64,000 nucleotides of DNA from Thermodesulfovibrio sp. 3462-1 (GTDB lineage Bacteria; Nitrospirota; Thermodesulfovibrionia; Thermodesulfovibrionales; Thermodesulfovibrionaceae): assembly GCF_040451425.1 (NCBI RefSeq), contig NZ_CP144374.1, forward strand, positions 1,218,501-1,282,500, written 5' to 3'. Below are positions 35,159-41,596 of this stretch, piece by piece; position 1 is the stretch's first letter; every line of letters begins with the position of its first letter. Position numbers and translations under genes: made by a program. Under the pieces are notes generated by a model. That model was not told where the DNA came from, ran no database searches, and saw only the letters and a program-made list of their open reading frames with translations.

Positions 35159-36100
35159 ATGAGTAAAATATTTGTCTTTTTAATAATAATTCTTTTTCCC
35201 TGCCTTGTATTTGCCCAGACTTACACAGTAAAAAAAGGTGACAGTATTTATAAAATTGCAGAGAAATTTAATGTTTCCGTTAATGAAATAAAAAAGGCAA
35301 ATAATCTAAAAAGCAATAAACTGCAAATAGGAATGAAACTGCAAATTCCTGAAAAAAATGAAAAAAAATCTAATTCAAAATCAATAAATGAAAACAAACC
35401 ACAGTATCACACTGTGAAAAAGGGTGAAACACTGTATAGAATTGCAAAAAAATACAATATATCAGTAGATGAACTTAAAAGACTCAATAGCTTAAGCAGC
35501 AACAAACTTAAGACAGGACAGAATCTTTTAGTAAAGGCTCAAAATGATACAACACAAAACCTATCAATAAGAGAGAATGAAAAAGTTCCAACCATTCATT
35601 CAGCTAAATTAGATATAGAAGAAAAGAAAGAAGAATTAGAAGAGATAAAAGCATCGGAAAATATCTCTCAGTTGAGCATAACAGAAAGATTGCTTCTTTT
35701 TGCCAAAAAGATGCTTCATCTACCATACAGATTTGGTGGAAATAGTTTTAGCGGATTTGACTGCTCCTTTTTTGTTAAAAAAGTTTATTCAATGGTTGGA
35801 ATTGAACTGCCAAGAAGCGCAAGAGAGCAGTTTACTATGGGAGTTCCTGTAAAAAAAGATGAACTCCAACCAGGAGACCTTGTATTTTTCAGAACCTATG
35901 CAAAATTTCCCTCTCATGTTGGAATTTATCTGGGAGACAACTTGTTCATCCATGCATCAACGAGATCAAAAAAGGTAACAATTGACAGTTTAGAAGCTCC
36001 CTATTATCTGAGCAGATTTATTGGTGCAAAAAGAATTCTTGGAATTGATAAGGAATCCCTTGAAAAAGCTATCGAGGAAGTTAAAAAGCAGGAAAATTAA
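35159..36100 (+). CDS. NlpC/P60 endopeptidase with two LysM domains
   Basis: Exported peptidoglycan hydrolase of 313 residues. A signal peptide (to about FAQ, residue 20) is followed by two LysM repeats: TYTVKKGDSIYKIAEKFNVS (about 21-64) and YHTVKKGETLYRIAKKYNIS (about 82-125). After a charged linker comes an NlpC/P60 domain with catalytic F-D-C-S-F-F (Cys about 202) and SHVGIYLGDN with the catalytic His. It cuts stem peptides in growing or dividing cells, by family analogy. It follows scpB closely and ends overlapping the convergent MoeA fusion by 4 nt. Confidence 0.92.
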   Translation: MSKIFVFLIIILFPCLVFAQTYTVKKGDSIYKIAEKFNVSVNEIKKANNLKSNKLQIGMKLQIPEKNEKKSNSKSINENKPQYHTVKKGETLYRIAKKYNISVDELKRLNSLSSNKLKTGQNLLVKAQNDTTQNLSIRENEKVPTIHSAKLDIEEKKEELEEIKASENISQLSITERLLLFAKKMLHLPYRFGGNSFSGFDCSFFVKKVYSMVGIELPRSAREQFTMGVPVKKDELQPGDLVFFRTYAKFPSHVGIYLGDNLFIHASTRSKKVTIDSLEAPYYLSRFIGAKRILGIDKESLEKAIEEVKKQEN

Positions 36101-38028
36101 TTAGAATACATTATCTTACCCATATCACGAGTATCATATCCACCAAGGAAGTTCACTGCTTTTTTAAACTCTTCGTCTTCTTTTATGACTTTTAAAACTG
36201 CCTGAATTATTGGCAATTCAAGAAAATCCTGAGGAATCAAAACATCGTATCTTTCTTCAGTAATAGGAATAAAATCAAGTCCAAGAGCTTCGGCAGCGGA
36301 AAGAATGCCCAGTCCCACATCAGCTCTTCCAGTAAGCACTGCTGAAGCAACTGCCATGTGGGTGTATTCATCTCTGTCATAACCTTTTATAGCATCAGGA
36401 GATATCCCAAGTTCCTTTAAATGTTTATCAAGAAGAAGTCTTGTGCCTGAACCTGCCTGTCTGTTTATAAAAACTACATCGTCACGAGTAAGATCTTCAA
36501 ATCCTTTAATGTTTTTTGGATTACCTTTTTTAACGATAAAACCCTGAATTCTATAAACAAGATTAATAAGAACAACTTTTTTCTCTGGCAAAAGTCTTTT
36601 TATAAAAGGCACATTATACTCCCCGGTTGCTTCATCAAGAAGATGAGTCCCAGCAATATGTGCTTCACCTTTTTTAATTGCAATAAGACCTCCCATTGAA
36701 CCAACATGTGCAGATGAAAGAGTTACTTGGGGAAATCTTTTTCTTAAAAAATTATACAAAACATCAAGAGTATTATCATGACTGCCAATGCAGACTACAG
36801 TATTGTCAATCTCCTCTTTGCTACGCCATAAATAAACGGGTATCTCAGACCCCTGAGAAAATCCTTCTGAACCTCTGGGAACAACAATATATCCATCAGC
36901 TCTAACAACACTCATTAAAAGTCCTGCACCTCTTCCCATTGGAGTTACAATGTATTTATCTCCTACCCTACCCACCTTCACTCTTACAAATTCATCAACC
37001 CCTATGCTTGATGATATCTGTCTTGAAAGTATTGCCTTAAGTACTTCTTCTTTTTTTGTTGATACACCAAGATAAAGCTCTATAAGAGGTTTAACAAAAA
37101 TGTCAAAGCATAAGAAGGCTGATACAGGATAACCCGGTATTCCTAAAACTGCTTTCTCTCTAATAAATCCTGCAATAAAGGGTTTACCAGGTTTTATGGC
37201 AACACCATTTATGATAACTTCACCAAGTTCATTGATTACTTTATAAGTAAAATCTTCCTTTCCATATCCAGAACCAGCATTCAACAAAACAATGTCACAC
37301 TCGTTTAAAGCATGCAAAATTGCATTTTTTATTTTATCTTCCTCATCTGGAACTACTGAATAAATTTTAGCTTCAGCTCCCACCTCAGTTACGAGACTGC
37401 TAAGAACGGCTGAATTATACTCTATAAGCTCAGGAGGATTTGGCATTCTCTCTTTAATTGTTTCAGCGTCAATTAGTTCTGAACCTGTTGGAATTATCCC
37501 AATAACAGGCTTTCTGCGAACTTTTATCTCTGTTATTCCGCTTGCAAGCATTGCTCCAATGTCAGCAGCACGCACAACATGACTTTCAGGAATAATTAAC
37601 TCTGTTGCCACAATATCTTCTCCAATAGGTCTTACATCATTGTAAGGAGGCACAGATGCATAAATCTCTATATATCCATTCTTTATATTGACATCTTCCA
37701 CTGGTATTACTGCATCAAAATCCTCTGGAAGTGGGTCTCCTGTTTCAATCCAGTGAGCATCAACACCAATTTTGAGCCTTACTGGCTCTCTCTCAGTTGC
37801 AGTGAAAGTATCACGAGCTCTAACAGCATATCCATCCATTGCAGCAGAATGAAAATAGGGTGAGGAAAATTTCGCAAAAACAGGCTCTGCTGTGACTCTT
37901 CCTAAGGCGGATTTAACCGAAATTACTTCTGCATCAATGGGAATTGAAACCCTTTCTTTAAAAAAATTTAAAAGCCTCTGTCTTGCCTCATCCAAAGATA
38001 TAAGTTCATGAAAAACCTTCTTACCCAT
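36097..38028 (-). CDS. MoeA-type molybdopterin molybdotransferase fused to a periplasmic-binding-like domain
   Basis: Molybdenum cofactor synthesis: MoeA inserts molybdate into adenylated molybdopterin. The N-terminal ~410 residues are MoeA-like, with AMDGYAVRARD, IETGDPLPEDFDAV, the GDI-like IGIIPTGSEL strand and GSGYGKEDFTYKV. The C-terminal ~230 residues resemble a type 2 periplasmic-binding/LysR-substrate domain (GSHDNTLDVLYNFLRKRFP, INRQAGSGTRLLLD). This domain may sense molybdate or the cofactor; that is inference. Such fusions are known in archaea and anaerobic bacteria. It starts on the last base of fdhE, which fits delivery of cofactor to formate dehydrogenase. Confidence 0.88.
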   Translation of the reverse strand: MGKKVFHELISLDEARQRLLNFFKERVSIPIDAEVISVKSALGRVTAEPVFAKFSSPYFHSAAMDGYAVRARDTFTATEREPVRLKIGVDAHWIETGDPLPEDFDAVIPVEDVNIKNGYIEIYASVPPYNDVRPIGEDIVATELIIPESHVVRAADIGAMLASGITEIKVRRKPVIGIIPTGSELIDAETIKERMPNPPELIEYNSAVLSSLVTEVGAEAKIYSVVPDEEDKIKNAILHALNECDIVLLNAGSGYGKEDFTYKVINELGEVIINGVAIKPGKPFIAGFIREKAVLGIPGYPVSAFLCFDIFVKPLIELYLGVSTKKEEVLKAILSRQISSSIGVDEFVRVKVGRVGDKYIVTPMGRGAGLLMSVVRADGYIVVPRGSEGFSQGSEIPVYLWRSKEEIDNTVVCIGSHDNTLDVLYNFLRKRFPQVTLSSAHVGSMGGLIAIKKGEAHIAGTHLLDEATGEYNVPFIKRLLPEKKVVLINLVYRIQGFIVKKGNPKNIKGFEDLTRDDVVFINRQAGSGTRLLLDKHLKELGISPDAIKGYDRDEYTHMAVASAVLTGRADVGLGILSAAEALGLDFIPITEERYDVLIPQDFLELPIIQAVLKVIKEDEEFKKAVNFLGGYDTRDMGKIMYSN

Positions 38029-38765
38029 TATGCAATTGTTCTTAAACCTATAATATTTGGAGATCTTCTTATGTAGCCACGCTTCTGAACCACAATATCA
38101 AGAGGCAAACTAACCAGGTCAATTAAAAATGGATCTCTGTATTTCATATAATGATCTTCTTTAAAGCTTTTTATGTAAGTATTACATTCAAGACAGAGTT
38201 CAGCTCTTATTTCTTCATCATCAAGAAGGATTTCTATTCTGGTTGAATCTTTATTAAAACAATAGGGACATCCAATCCTGAAAAAGCTTCCTCTATGCCC
38301 ACAAAGTGGACAGATCATTATTTTTTCATTATTCTCTGTAATCATTGCAAGAGATGAATCTGTTCCACAGACTGGGCATTTTCCTGTATCCATAAAAGAT
38401 GCCTGCTCGCCTTCTTTTCTTAAAAAGACAAAAAAGGGCTTGCTTAATATAAAAAGCATTCTTTCAGCTTCTTCCTTTGAAATCTCCTCGCCTTGAACCT
38501 GAAGTGTCCACAAACTATGAGGCTCCTTAACAGGATTTTTACCGCTTTTTAAAATCTCATCCTTTAAGAACAAAACTGATTCATAGGGGATCTGAAAAAC
38601 TAATGAGAAATTTTTAAGAACAATATCAATCAATGCAGTATCGCTGTCAAGATTTAGCATTTCTTTGTCTTTTTTGCACTGTTCTGTTAAATTTTTAATT
38701 TTTCCATAAAATTCAAGGGGGCTTCGTAAATATGGTTTTTCGTTTATTACTTCTTCAATTTTCAT
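38028..38765 (-). CDS. fdhE: Formate dehydrogenase accessory protein FdhE
   Basis: A 245-residue rubredoxin-like accessory protein needed for assembly of respiratory formate dehydrogenase. The C-terminal half has four zinc/iron knuckles: C-P-V-C-G-T, C-P-L-C-G-H, C-P-Y-C and C-L-E-C. The N-terminal half is helical. The closing RSPNIIGL..A is family-like. It lies between a di-heme peroxidase (13 nt) and the MoeA fusion (overlap). The formate dehydrogenase itself is not in this window; it is often a selenoprotein, which agrees with the selenium signs here. Confidence 0.85.
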   Translation of the reverse strand: MKIEEVINEKPYLRSPLEFYGKIKNLTEQCKKDKEMLNLDSDTALIDIVLKNFSLVFQIPYESVLFLKDEILKSGKNPVKEPHSLWTLQVQGEEISKEEAERMLFILSKPFFVFLRKEGEQASFMDTGKCPVCGTDSSLAMITENNEKIMICPLCGHRGSFFRIGCPYCFNKDSTRIEILLDDEEIRAELCLECNTYIKSFKEDHYMKYRDPFLIDLVSLPLDIVVQKRGYIRRSPNIIGLRTIA

Positions 38766-38778
38766 ATCTCCTCCAGGT

Positions 38779-39906
38779 TTATGGAATTTCTGGTGGTTTT
38801 ATATTCAAATCATCACCAGATAGAGCTTCCACAAGAAAGGTTTTCAGTGCTTTCTTTTCATCATCAGTTAAATTAAGAGGTTTCAACACCTTATTCCCCT
38901 TTCCTCCGCCTTTATTAAAGAAATCAATTACCTCGTCAAGGCTCTTAAATATACCATTATGCATATAAGGTGCAGTTTTTGCAACTTCTCTTAAGGTAGG
39001 AGTTTTAAAAGCTTTGTAATCCTTTTTTTTCTTCGTTTTAAAGTATCTTCCAAGGTCCTCTTTTACATTCATGTAGTCTGGATATCTATTAATTTTAGCC
39101 ACATAGCGCCTTGTAGTTATAAACTTTGGCTCATTAACATATTTTGGATTTTCTGGAACCTCCAAAGCATGAAATTCCTGATCACTGAGATAAGCTCCAT
39201 AATGGCATTCTATACATTTTCCTTTTCCTGTAAAGATTTTAAGTCCCTTTTTAGCTTCTGCAGTTAATGCATTTTCATCTCCCCTTAAATAACGGTCAAT
39301 TGGTGCATTTCTCGATATTAGCGTTCTTTCAAAGGCTGCAATTGCTTTTGCAATAAGTTTTATATTTACATCATTACCAAAAATTCTCTTAAAGGCTTCT
39401 CTGTATTCAGGAACAATTCTTATTTCTTCCTCTAAAAAATCAAGATTCTGGTTCATTTCAAAAGGTGACATAATTGGAAACTCTGCCTGTTCTTCAAGAG
39501 TCTTTGCTCTTCCATCCCAGAAAAGATATTTTGCATAGGCTACATTCATTAAAGTAGGAGCATTTCTGAAGTTTCTTGTTGTTGGATAACTGAGAGATAT
39601 TTCAGAACCATCTGTAAATGCTTTTTCAGGATCATGGCAATTGGCACAGCTTGTAGTTGCATCTCCTGAAAGTCTTCGGTCAAAGAAAAGCTTTTTACCA
39701 AGTTCAATTTTCTCTGAAGTCATTGGATTGTCCTTTGGAACAGGTGGAGGAGGAAGGGGTTCAAGTTGTTTTTTCTTTTTGTCAGAGGCAAAGCCTTCAA
39801 TATGGAAATAGATAAAAAAAACAAAAATAGCGCAGAGAAAGTAAATGATGCTATTTTTTAGTAGCACTTTTAAGTTCTTGTAAAATAATTTCCTTGAAAT
39901 AATCAT
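38779..39906 (-). CDS. Di-heme cytochrome c peroxidase (CcpA/MauG family)
   Basis: Periplasmic peroxidase reducing H2O2 with electrons from c-type cytochromes. 375 residues with an N-terminal hydrophobic anchor or signal (about 18-40) and a Pro-rich linker. Two heme c sites are seen: C-A-N-C-H (87-91) in the peroxidatic half and C-I-E-C-H (about 230) in the electron-entry half. FDRRLSGDATTSCANCHDPE, split as FDRRLSGDATTS and CANCHDPE, FRNAPTLMNVAY and TPTLREVAKTAPYMHNG are family signatures. Its start overlaps the end of the candidate selenoprotein gene by 56 nt, so the two are translationally linked, suggesting a shared redox or oxidative-stress role. Confidence 0.92.
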   Translation of the reverse strand: MIISRKLFYKNLKVLLKNSIIYFLCAIFVFFIYFHIEGFASDKKKKQLEPLPPPPVPKDNPMTSEKIELGKKLFFDRRLSGDATTSCANCHDPEKAFTDGSEISLSYPTTRNFRNAPTLMNVAYAKYLFWDGRAKTLEEQAEFPIMSPFEMNQNLDFLEEEIRIVPEYREAFKRIFGNDVNIKLIAKAIAAFERTLISRNAPIDRYLRGDENALTAEAKKGLKIFTGKGKCIECHYGAYLSDQEFHALEVPENPKYVNEPKFITTRRYVAKINRYPDYMNVKEDLGRYFKTKKKKDYKAFKTPTLREVAKTAPYMHNGIFKSLDEVIDFFNKGGGKGNKVLKPLNLTDDEKKALKTFLVEALSGDDLNIKPPEIP

Positions 39907-40453
39907 AGTCTCTTACTCCAAGAATTTTTAATCCATTGATATAAAAAGCAGGAGTTACATAAAGTTCCATCTCCTTGGCAAGTTTCAAATCTCTTTCAAT
40001 AATTGAAGCACCTTCTTGATTGTCTATTGCCTTTATAAATTTTTCAATATCAAGATTGAGTTCTTTTGCATATGCTATTAAAGATTCCCTGTCAAGCTTT
40101 GGAGATCTTTTTATTAATAATTCATGCATTTCAGCAAATTTTCCCTGCTTCCATGCTTCAACTGCGGCCTCTGCTGCAACTCTTGAATAATCTCTGTAGC
40201 GATATGGGAAAAACTTAATCACAAGTTTTACCTTTCCTGTAAACTCTTTAACCAATCCTTCGATGGTCGGACCGACCTCAACACAATGCGGTCATTGATA
40301 GTCAATAAATTCAACAATGGTAACGGGTGCATTCTCATATCCAATATAAGGTGATTCTTCCAGAGGCAAACTGTATCTTTTTTCAGCTGCAAAAGAACTG
40401 GATAAAATAGATAAAACTAACAAAATCAACAAAAGCTGTTTAATAATTTTCAT
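39851..40453 (-). CDS. DsbA-like thioredoxin-fold protein, candidate selenoprotein (UPHC)
   Basis: Exported thioredoxin-fold oxidoreductase of 200 residues if the in-frame UGA at 40294-40292 (codon 54) is read as selenocysteine. The frame from ATG 40453 gives a signal peptide (KQLLLILLVLSILSSSFAA), then ENAPVTIVEFIDYQ, UGA, PHCVEVGPTIEGL and an uninterrupted DsbA fold (VKFFPYRYRDY-like segment, ELNLDIEKFIKAID, VTPAFYING with the cis-Pro). The UGA sits exactly where the first Cys of the CPHC active site belongs. A hairpin at 40281-40260 has SECIS-like placement. The part after the UGA alone (from 40255) would lack signal and active site. A nonsense mutation of TGC/TGT is the alternative. Confidence 0.8.
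40260..40281 (-). promoter_or_regulatory. Candidate bacterial SECIS element
   Basis: Downstream of UGA 40294-40292, bases +15 to +27 form GGUCG-GUC-CGACC, a perfect 5-bp stem with a G-first apical loop. With a bulged A the stem extends by A-U, G-C, U-G and U-A to 9 bp. The loop begins 20 nt after the UGA, within the usual 16-37 nt window for bacterial SECIS. Confidence 0.65.
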
Positions 40454-40489
40454 ATTTTTTCTCCTAGTGTTTAATTATAACACATTTAA

Positions 40490-41596
40490 TCATACAATAT
40501 CAGTCTCGTAAATTCGCAAAGTTTTATACCTACGGGCATTAATTATCTGGGTCAGATTAATTGTATCAAAGTTATCTTCAAGAATCCACGAAAATTCAAC
40601 TTTTTTAAAGCCATATTTTCTGGCACCCTTGAAAGCTTCCCTGAGCATTATTGATTCCACTCCTTTGTGTCTCATCTCTTTTTTTACTCCAAAAAGAAGA
40701 AGCCTTATTGATTGAATTTTCCTTCTGTAATACAGAGCCTTAATTATTGCCCATGGCGTAAGTCTTCCTTTTATTTTTCTTAATACTTCATTAAAATCAG
40801 GAATGGCACCAAAAAAACCAACAGGCTTACCTTCTTTTTCAGCAACAATAACCAATTCTGGCAAAGCTATTGGCTTTAGCTTTTCAGCCATGTAATCAAT
40901 TTCTTCCTTTGTTATAGGAATAAATCCCCAATTTGAAGCCCATGCTTCATTATAAACTTCCATGAATGCATAAAGCTCTTCAGTTAAATTTTTTAATTTC
41001 ACTGTTCTTGCCATGATTCCCTGTTTTTCAGCAAACTGTGCGATTCTTTCAATATTTGAAGGAAGCATCTCAGGAACATCAGCTAAAAAACAGTAAAGAT
41101 CCTTTGCCTTTTTCATTCCATAGGATTCAGCAAGACTGTTGTAATATGGTGGATTATAGGGAATCATTATCATCGAAGGACAATCAAATCCTTCATAAAG
41201 AAATCCGCATTCTTCATTTGTTGAAAGATTCATTGGACCACGCATTATGGAAAGATTATTTTCTTTAAGAAACTCCTTTGCTTTATTAAATAAGGCATTT
41301 GCAACAGCCTGGTCATTTATGCACTCAAAAAGACCAAAAAAGCCTACATTGTCCTTATGATATTCAAGATGAGCATAATTAACTATGGCAGCGATTCTTC
41401 CTGCAGGTTTTCCATCCTTGTAAGCAATATAAAATTTAGCCTTTGCTCTTTTAAAAAAAGGATTTTTCGCAGTAAGATGCTCTATCTGATCTTTAATTAA
41501 TGGAGAAGCGTAAAAGGAATCCTCTTTATAAAGTTTCAATGGCAGGGTTACGAATTCTCTGAGCTGTTTCTTATTTATAATTTCTTTTATTTCCAA
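40490..41596 (-). CDS. GNAT-type N-acetyltransferase domain protein
   Basis: A 368-residue uncharacterised protein with two GNAT-like halves. AKFYIAYKDGKPAGRIAAIVNYAHLEYH, here in part YIAYKDGKPAGRIAAIVN, and FFGLFECINDQAVANALF lie near residues 53-105. A C-terminal half has VIVAEKEGKPVGFFGAIPD and GVKKEMRHKGVESIMLREA, an acetyl-CoA-binding Q/RxxGxG/A-like loop. Related proteins are common in anaerobes (YghO-like) with no known substrate. It lies upstream of the selenoprotein group on the same strand, 37 nt away. Confidence 0.7.
   Translation of the reverse strand: MEIKEIINKKQLREFVTLPLKLYKEDSFYASPLIKDQIEHLTAKNPFFKRAKAKFYIAYKDGKPAGRIAAIVNYAHLEYHKDNVGFFGLFECINDQAVANALFNKAKEFLKENNLSIMRGPMNLSTNEECGFLYEGFDCPSMIMIPYNPPYYNSLAESYGMKKAKDLYCFLADVPEMLPSNIERIAQFAEKQGIMARTVKLKNLTEELYAFMEVYNEAWASNWGFIPITKEEIDYMAEKLKPIALPELVIVAEKEGKPVGFFGAIPDFNEVLRKIKGRLTPWAIIKALYYRRKIQSIRLLLFGVKKEMRHKGVESIMLREAFKGARKYGFKKVEFSWILEDNFDTINLTQIINARRYKTLRIYETDIV

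Follow-up and report, generated by a model that had tools for sequence, protein, structure and literature searches.

The window analysed here, a stretch of 64,000 nucleotides from Thermodesulfovibrio sp. 3462-1 (contig NZ_CP144374.1, positions 1,218,501 to 1,282,500), almost certainly carries a gene for an exported oxidoreductase of the DsbA/BdbD fold in which an in-frame UGA codon is read as selenocysteine (Sec) through SelB, tRNA-Sec and a downstream hairpin (Table 1). Both the incorporation of Sec and the export of the protein are predicted from sequence. Sequencing error, pseudogene formation and chance are effectively excluded as causes of the UGA. By gene context, the gene for the Sec-containing DsbA opens a two-gene unit whose second member encodes a di-haem peroxidase, and this unit is part of a formate dehydrogenase gene set. 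An earlier note on the window had proposed the selenoprotein and its hairpin. What is added here is the conservation of the gene across the phylum, its link to a peroxidase and its setting among formate dehydrogenase genes.

Table 1. Features of the selenoprotein locus, numbered from the first nucleotide of the window
Feature	Position	Strand	Basis
Fusion of MoeA (molybdopterin synthesis) with a PBP-like substrate-binding domain (PF12727) at the C-terminus	36097..38028	-	domain search; adjoins FdhE
FdhE, formate dehydrogenase accessory protein	38028..38765	-	PF24860, 8.8e-11
Di-haem cytochrome c peroxidase/MauG-family protein	38779..39906	-	PF03150, 1.8e-54
DsbA-like selenoprotein CDS, 200 aa, Sec at residue 54 (UPHC)	39851..40453	-	frame reading, Pfam, orthologues
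Predicted SECIS hairpin: core GGUCG-GUC-CGACC (40277-40265), extension UUGA/UCGA, one bulged A	40260..40281	-	fold and covariation
In-frame UGA codon, predicted Sec, first active-site residue	40292..40294	-	TGA in 72/72 distinct orthologues
Predicted signal peptide MKIIKQLLLILLVLSILSSSFA, putative cleavage after FA	40388..40453	-	sequence reading by eye
AGGAG ribosome-binding site, ATG 7 nt further on	40461..40465	-	sequence

The in-frame UGA and its hairpin

The minus-strand frame that runs from 40453 to 39851 has 200 codons and a single internal stop, the TGA at codon 54 (40294-40292); the residues around it read FIDYQ-U-PHC. This re-reading confirmed the earlier note on both the sole stop and its position. 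When the window was scanned for UGA-interrupted frames, the DsbA-like gene was the only convincing case. Its leader (the first 22 residues) resembles an export signal when read by eye, and a hydrophobic leader recurs among the relatives within the genus. The plain list of open reading frames for the window holds just a 134-aa C-terminal fragment of the protein, with a TTG start at 40255. Since this fragment starts past the UGA, the active site would be lost together with the signal peptide, which is the truncation that had been predicted of gene callers.

The host genome (1.82 Mb, one contig) contains selA (617 bits), selB (398.7 bits), selD and selC, the gene for a tRNA-Sec with the anticodon UCA. 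The search that the earlier note had suggested thus found all four genes, including selB and selC, on whose presence that note had made its reading depend. The host has other ordinary selenoprotein genes, as selD itself and fdhA (formate dehydrogenase alpha) each carry one in-frame TGA; hairpins are found downstream of these two UGAs as well. Among the genomes that bear the DsbA-like gene, four drafts that are 56-96% complete (G009, G012, G040 and G167) gave no selB match. Co-occurrence of the selenoprotein gene with selB is uninformative and was dropped as evidence, since almost every genome of the order (159 of 176) has selB.

The gene is found in 14 of the 16 Thermodesulfovibrio genomes, always with TGA at codon 54; the two genomes without it are 68-72% complete. 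Seventy-two distinct orthologues, from about twelve families of Nitrospirota, all have the TGA (72/72), in a UPHC motif in 71 cases and UTHC in one, and none of the 72 has Cys at the Sec position. Distant homologues have TGC or TGT at the aligned codon. The alignment thus bears out the proposal that the UGA takes the place of the first Cys of a CPHC site, with Cys in distant relatives and UGA in all the orthologues. An in-frame UGA that faces a homologous Cys, in a genome with SelA, SelB, SelD and tRNA-Sec, places the gene among the predicted selenoprotein genes. A quick tree that also included 29 Cys relatives and 10 further Sec relatives placed the orthologues in one group (99% SH-aLRT) with zero Cys members. 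The single-protein search of genome contigs used a Cys-codon pattern at the active site and is blind at a Sec codon, so that the search beyond Nitrospirota is not exhaustive. A second UGA, seen in locus L098, is the normal terminator of the gene.

The stem GGUCG/CGACC of the predicted hairpin occupies nucleotides +15 to +19 and +23 to +27 after the UGA. It encloses a GUC loop whose first G lies at +20, so that the UGA and the loop are 19 nt apart. With one bulged A, the stem can be lengthened to 9 bp, and the local minimum free energy (MFE) is -8.6 kcal/mol. The bSECIS model specifies a loop of 3-9 nt, a stem of 4-16 bp, a G in loop positions 1-2, a spacing of 16-37 nt and an MFE of -7.5 or lower (PMC13188914). 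The window hairpin lies within all these limits (loop GUC, 5-9 bp, 19 nt, -8.6 kcal/mol), and the SECIS-like hairpin originally described, with its G-first loop and 9-bp extension, therefore agrees with the published constraints. The short hairpins of some relatives are weaker than -7.5 (-6.5 in L080 and -4.3 in L044), and a search of the hairpin region against Rfam matched no family. Of 200 shuffled sequences, 7 fold as stably as the window hairpin. On energy alone the hairpin is thus just modestly better than chance. What decides the matter is comparison, with third bases that are frozen within the genus and compensatory changes over the wider phylum.

In 68 of the 72 orthologues the local minimum-energy fold contains four or more of the five core pairs, and the first loop position is G in all 72. 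Within the genus, the hairpin codons GAG GTC GGT CCG ACC are invariant (GTC in 13 of 14); the other fully conserved fourfold codons mostly occur as 2-4 synonyms each. The fourfold columns of V-G-P-T in the hairpin have the four lowest entropies of 24, a level equally low in 31 of 200000 random sets. Two of the pairs join third codon positions on both sides. Among the 72 sequences, the pair +15/+27 occurs as G-C, U-A, A-U, C-G and G-U, and the pair +18/+24 as C-G, U-A and U-G, with one mismatch each. The covariation score, 0.222 against 0.145 +/- 0.011 after shuffling, was as high in none of 500 shuffles. Paired cells, double-change cells and pair types each exceeded all 500 shuffles, and the count of pairs changed on both sides was reached by 30 of them. 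A control register slid by +3 gave a covariation of 0.254, as high as the true register, with 67.9% of cells paired vs 88.2%.

These comparisons also bear on whether the UGA could be a real stop, either in a pseudogene or behind a short leader that is followed by an internally initiated 134-aa protein. Such a protein is indeed present in the list of open reading frames, but it would be without an active site; conservation of the protein on both sides of the UGA across the phylum, the covariation of the SECIS and the lack of any other stop or sense codon at this place in the 72 orthologues make a real stop very improbable. A misread TGC or TGT at 40292-40294, which the earlier note had named as the observation to look for against its reading, is excluded by the UGA in all orthologues: the identical TGA recurs in many independently sequenced genomes, no point in favour of an error was found, and its probability is negligible.

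Fold and known relatives

The protein belongs to the DsbA/Thioredoxin_4 family by Pfam gathering scores. PF13462 (Thioredoxin_4) matches residues 33-190 with 5.8e-26 and 92.1 bits (gathering score 23.2), and PF01323 (DSBA) matches with 3.9e-15 and 56.6 bits (gathering score 25.6). The predicted structure (pLDDT 95.4) shows a thioredoxin fold with a helical insert and a cis-Pro loop, in which T167-P168 is invariant, and its best solved match is BdbD (3eu3, E 1.2e-13). In sequence, the proteins of solved structure nearest to it are BdbD, ScsC and other DsbA proteins. These (3eu3, 4gxz, 6mhh) have the same fold, active-site region and TP loop, but their identity is about 25-32% and they have Cys where the selenoprotein has Sec. 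We know of no linkage of these solved proteins to formate dehydrogenase or to a peroxidase.

The nearest curated model is NF041057, the Rcas_1661 thioredoxin-like (seleno)lipoprotein, which represents a family of DsbG-like selenoproteins (PMC13188914). The fold is shared, and the family has named selenoprotein members. The window protein scores 79.2 bits, well below the curated cut-off of 190, so that the model does not cover its clade; two further clade members score 80.8 and 102.7 bits. The window protein also differs from this family in being shorter, in having a leader without the lipoprotein Cys and in belonging to a clade that is all-Sec.

DsbA-like and DsbG-like UxxC selenoproteins were described in 2005-2008 (PMC1088965, PMC1794560, PMC2398784), and 45 DsbA-like selenoproteins had been counted in 41 organisms by 2016 (PMC5029168). 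One of this kind, Dde_1263 of Desulfovibrio desulfuricans, is named in PMC1914089. The DsbA-like selenoproteins known from the work of Zhang, Gladyshev and co-workers (UxxC, PF01323/COG2761) are likewise thioredoxin-fold proteins in which Sec is the first residue of the active site, with a bacterial SECIS shortly downstream; their Pfam family is PF01323, and the best Pfam match of the window protein is PF13462. Nitrospirota or Thermodesulfovibrio, a peroxidase partner and a formate dehydrogenase operon are unmentioned in the available parts of PMC1088965, PMC1794560, PMC2398784 and PMC5029168. In the open-licence literature, which excludes most subscription papers, no account was found of this family in Thermodesulfovibrio or Nitrospirota, of the peroxidase that accompanies it or of its place beside formate dehydrogenase, and a search of open-licence papers for a link between selenoproteins and MauG returned nothing relevant. 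Since DsbA-like selenoproteins have been known since 2005, the clade of the window protein is a new subfamily and not a new class. The earlier note's reading of the UGA as Sec is supported, but the note overstated how unusual the protein is, as Sec proteins of the DsbA type were already known.

Two side observations concern other frames with an in-frame UGA. A second set of Nitrospirota DsbA-like frames has an in-frame TGA in a UPYC or UPFC motif (L140, L141, L142, L143, L144 and L156; also L134, L154 and L155). L140 scores 71 bits against NF041057, below the cut-off, and a peroxidase neighbour is absent in the whole set. At locus L104 (3480-4790) the selenoprotein gene stands twice in tandem behind fdhA; the peroxidase is absent there, and the second copy has UTHC and not UPHC.

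The peroxidase partner and the formate dehydrogenase gene set

The peroxidase gene is predicted to start inside the selenoprotein gene, so that the last 56 nt of the latter belong to both, and the open frames overlap across the genomes of the genus. A peroxidase homologue lies directly downstream in 68 of the 70 loci with room for it (in L121 the match is to the C-terminal part only). Across the 176 genomes of the order, such a peroxidase is present in 60 of 64 genomes with the selenoprotein vs 2 of 112 without it (Fisher p 1.6e-39), and some of the exceptions are contig ends. Two exceptions indicate that neither protein strictly requires the other: G031 has two tandem selenoprotein copies behind fdhA with no such peroxidase nearby, and G049 (L180, 5033-6082), the sole clear orphan in the order, has kept the peroxidase and MoeA without the selenoprotein. 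A 559-aa frame that fuses selenoprotein and peroxidase in Thermodesulfovibrio sp. N1 (L003/L045) is most simply explained by one A missing from a run of A7/A8; one added A would restore both usual frames, and the fusion is therefore not taken as meaningful.

The mature peroxidase has only four conserved Cys, those of two CXXCH haem sites, and together with its PF03150 match these assign it to the di-haem CCP_MauG proteins. It aligns over most of its length with di-haem peroxidases (Geobacter MacA/CcpA) and MauG/MbnH, but falls below the curated cut-offs for MauG (239 vs 444 bits) and MbnH (236 vs 363 bits). The apparent sixth-ligand position of the high-potential haem (F330) is Phe in 59 and Leu in 7 of 67 homologues. 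In Geobacter MacA the residue aligned with F330 is the axial Met, as is usual for cytochrome c peroxidases. With Phe or Leu in place of this Met, the partner is probably not an ordinary cytochrome c peroxidase, and its low scores against MauG and MbnH further suggest that it may represent an undescribed subfamily.

Outside Thermodesulfovibrio, the catalytic subunit of formate dehydrogenase is encoded just upstream of the pair in 26 of the 30 loci with enough upstream sequence. Also encoded in the operon upstream of the pair are an Fe-S subunit, which carries the formate dehydrogenase transmembrane domain, and a membrane subunit of the cytochrome b561 or NrfD type. In longer stretches the catalytic subunit is found in 18 of 20, with 62-67% identity to that of the host genome, and 17 of these 18 have a UGA at a UHSPT/UHSAT motif. 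Downstream of the pair, FdhE is present in 10 and MoeA in 5 of 34 loci, three loci of the genus included. The fdhA gene of the host genome lies ~540 kb from the selenoprotein gene. Gene context thus shows the pair to be part of a larger set of formate dehydrogenase genes (Sec-FdhA, Fe-S subunit, membrane subunit, Sec-DsbA, peroxidase and sometimes FdhE and MoeA). Many Nitrospirota have this set in one piece, and in Thermodesulfovibrio it is partly scattered. As to the other side of the gene, an apparent tRNA-Arg (CCT) gene lies immediately upstream in most other Thermodesulfovibrio genomes (L045-L048, L052-L056); in the window its place is taken by a GNAT-family gene (40490-41596).

Possible role of the pair

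The selenoprotein would be the product of the first of the two genes in the unit, the second encoding the divergent di-haem peroxidase/MauG-family protein; SelB and tRNA-Sec would insert its Sec at the UGA under the guidance of the hairpin, whose loop starts 20 nt downstream. From the gene context we tentatively suggest, as the likeliest role, a redox factor dedicated to a periplasmic formate dehydrogenase/peroxidase module, in which the UPHC site may maintain the working state of thiols or selenols. Its substrates would be the CXXCH cysteines of the peroxidase, to be reduced or isomerised ahead of haem attachment, and/or oxidised Sec or Cys of the formate dehydrogenase, to be rescued. The haem enzyme would clear peroxide close to the oxidant-sensitive formate dehydrogenase. 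Sec at the attacking position of a thioredoxin fold should quicken the first attack and ease recovery from over-oxidation. Gene context is likewise the basis on which we infer the substrate of the Sec-DsbA and the direction of its electron flow, reducing or oxidising. A bolder and more doubtful extension is that the exported Sec-DsbA and the non-canonical di-haem enzyme mature or protect the Sec site or cysteines of the formate dehydrogenase, which would make it a case of one selenoprotein servicing another.

The CPHC-type motif is like that of classical DsbA, and the top structural match, BdbD, is an oxidase. Both points fit a general periplasmic disulfide-forming oxidase that fills the role of DsbA or BdbD with Sec, its peroxidase and formate dehydrogenase neighbours being a matter of regulatory convenience. 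We consider this unlikely, as the selenoprotein comes and goes in step with one peroxidase subfamily and, unlike a housekeeping oxidase, is missing from most genomes of the order. In addition, VKOR, the one re-oxidation partner that the search covered, was not found in the host genome. This result for VKOR, the haem CXXCH sites and the Sec-enzyme neighbours lead us to favour, tentatively, a reducing or rescuing role over general disulfide formation.

Less likely still is a joint catalytic pair made up of the Sec protein and the di-haem enzyme. In it, the MauG-like enzyme would oxidise the selenol or be reduced by it, for instance in a peroxide-driven selenenic/disulfide relay. The overlapping genes, their near-perfect co-occurrence and the Phe or Leu at the place of the axial ligand, by which the haem enzyme may not be an ordinary cytochrome peroxidase, would all suit such a pair, but the Sec protein occurs twice in G031 without the peroxidase. 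To our knowledge, there is also no precedent for a thiol partner of di-haem/MauG-like enzymes, which we count against it.

The retention of Sec in every orthologue found implies that Cys is apparently insufficient here, and the old question of why Sec is used rather than Cys becomes testable in a simple thioredoxin-fold protein. Because standard gene calling removes both the signal peptide and the active site, the exported selenoenzyme is probably missing or truncated in annotations of Nitrospirota. The gene linkage provides a concrete lead on the maturation or protection of periplasmic selenium-dependent formate dehydrogenases. If the more doubtful proposal of one selenoprotein servicing another is true, such a selenoprotein would be conserved throughout the phylum, with Cys never substituting for its Sec.
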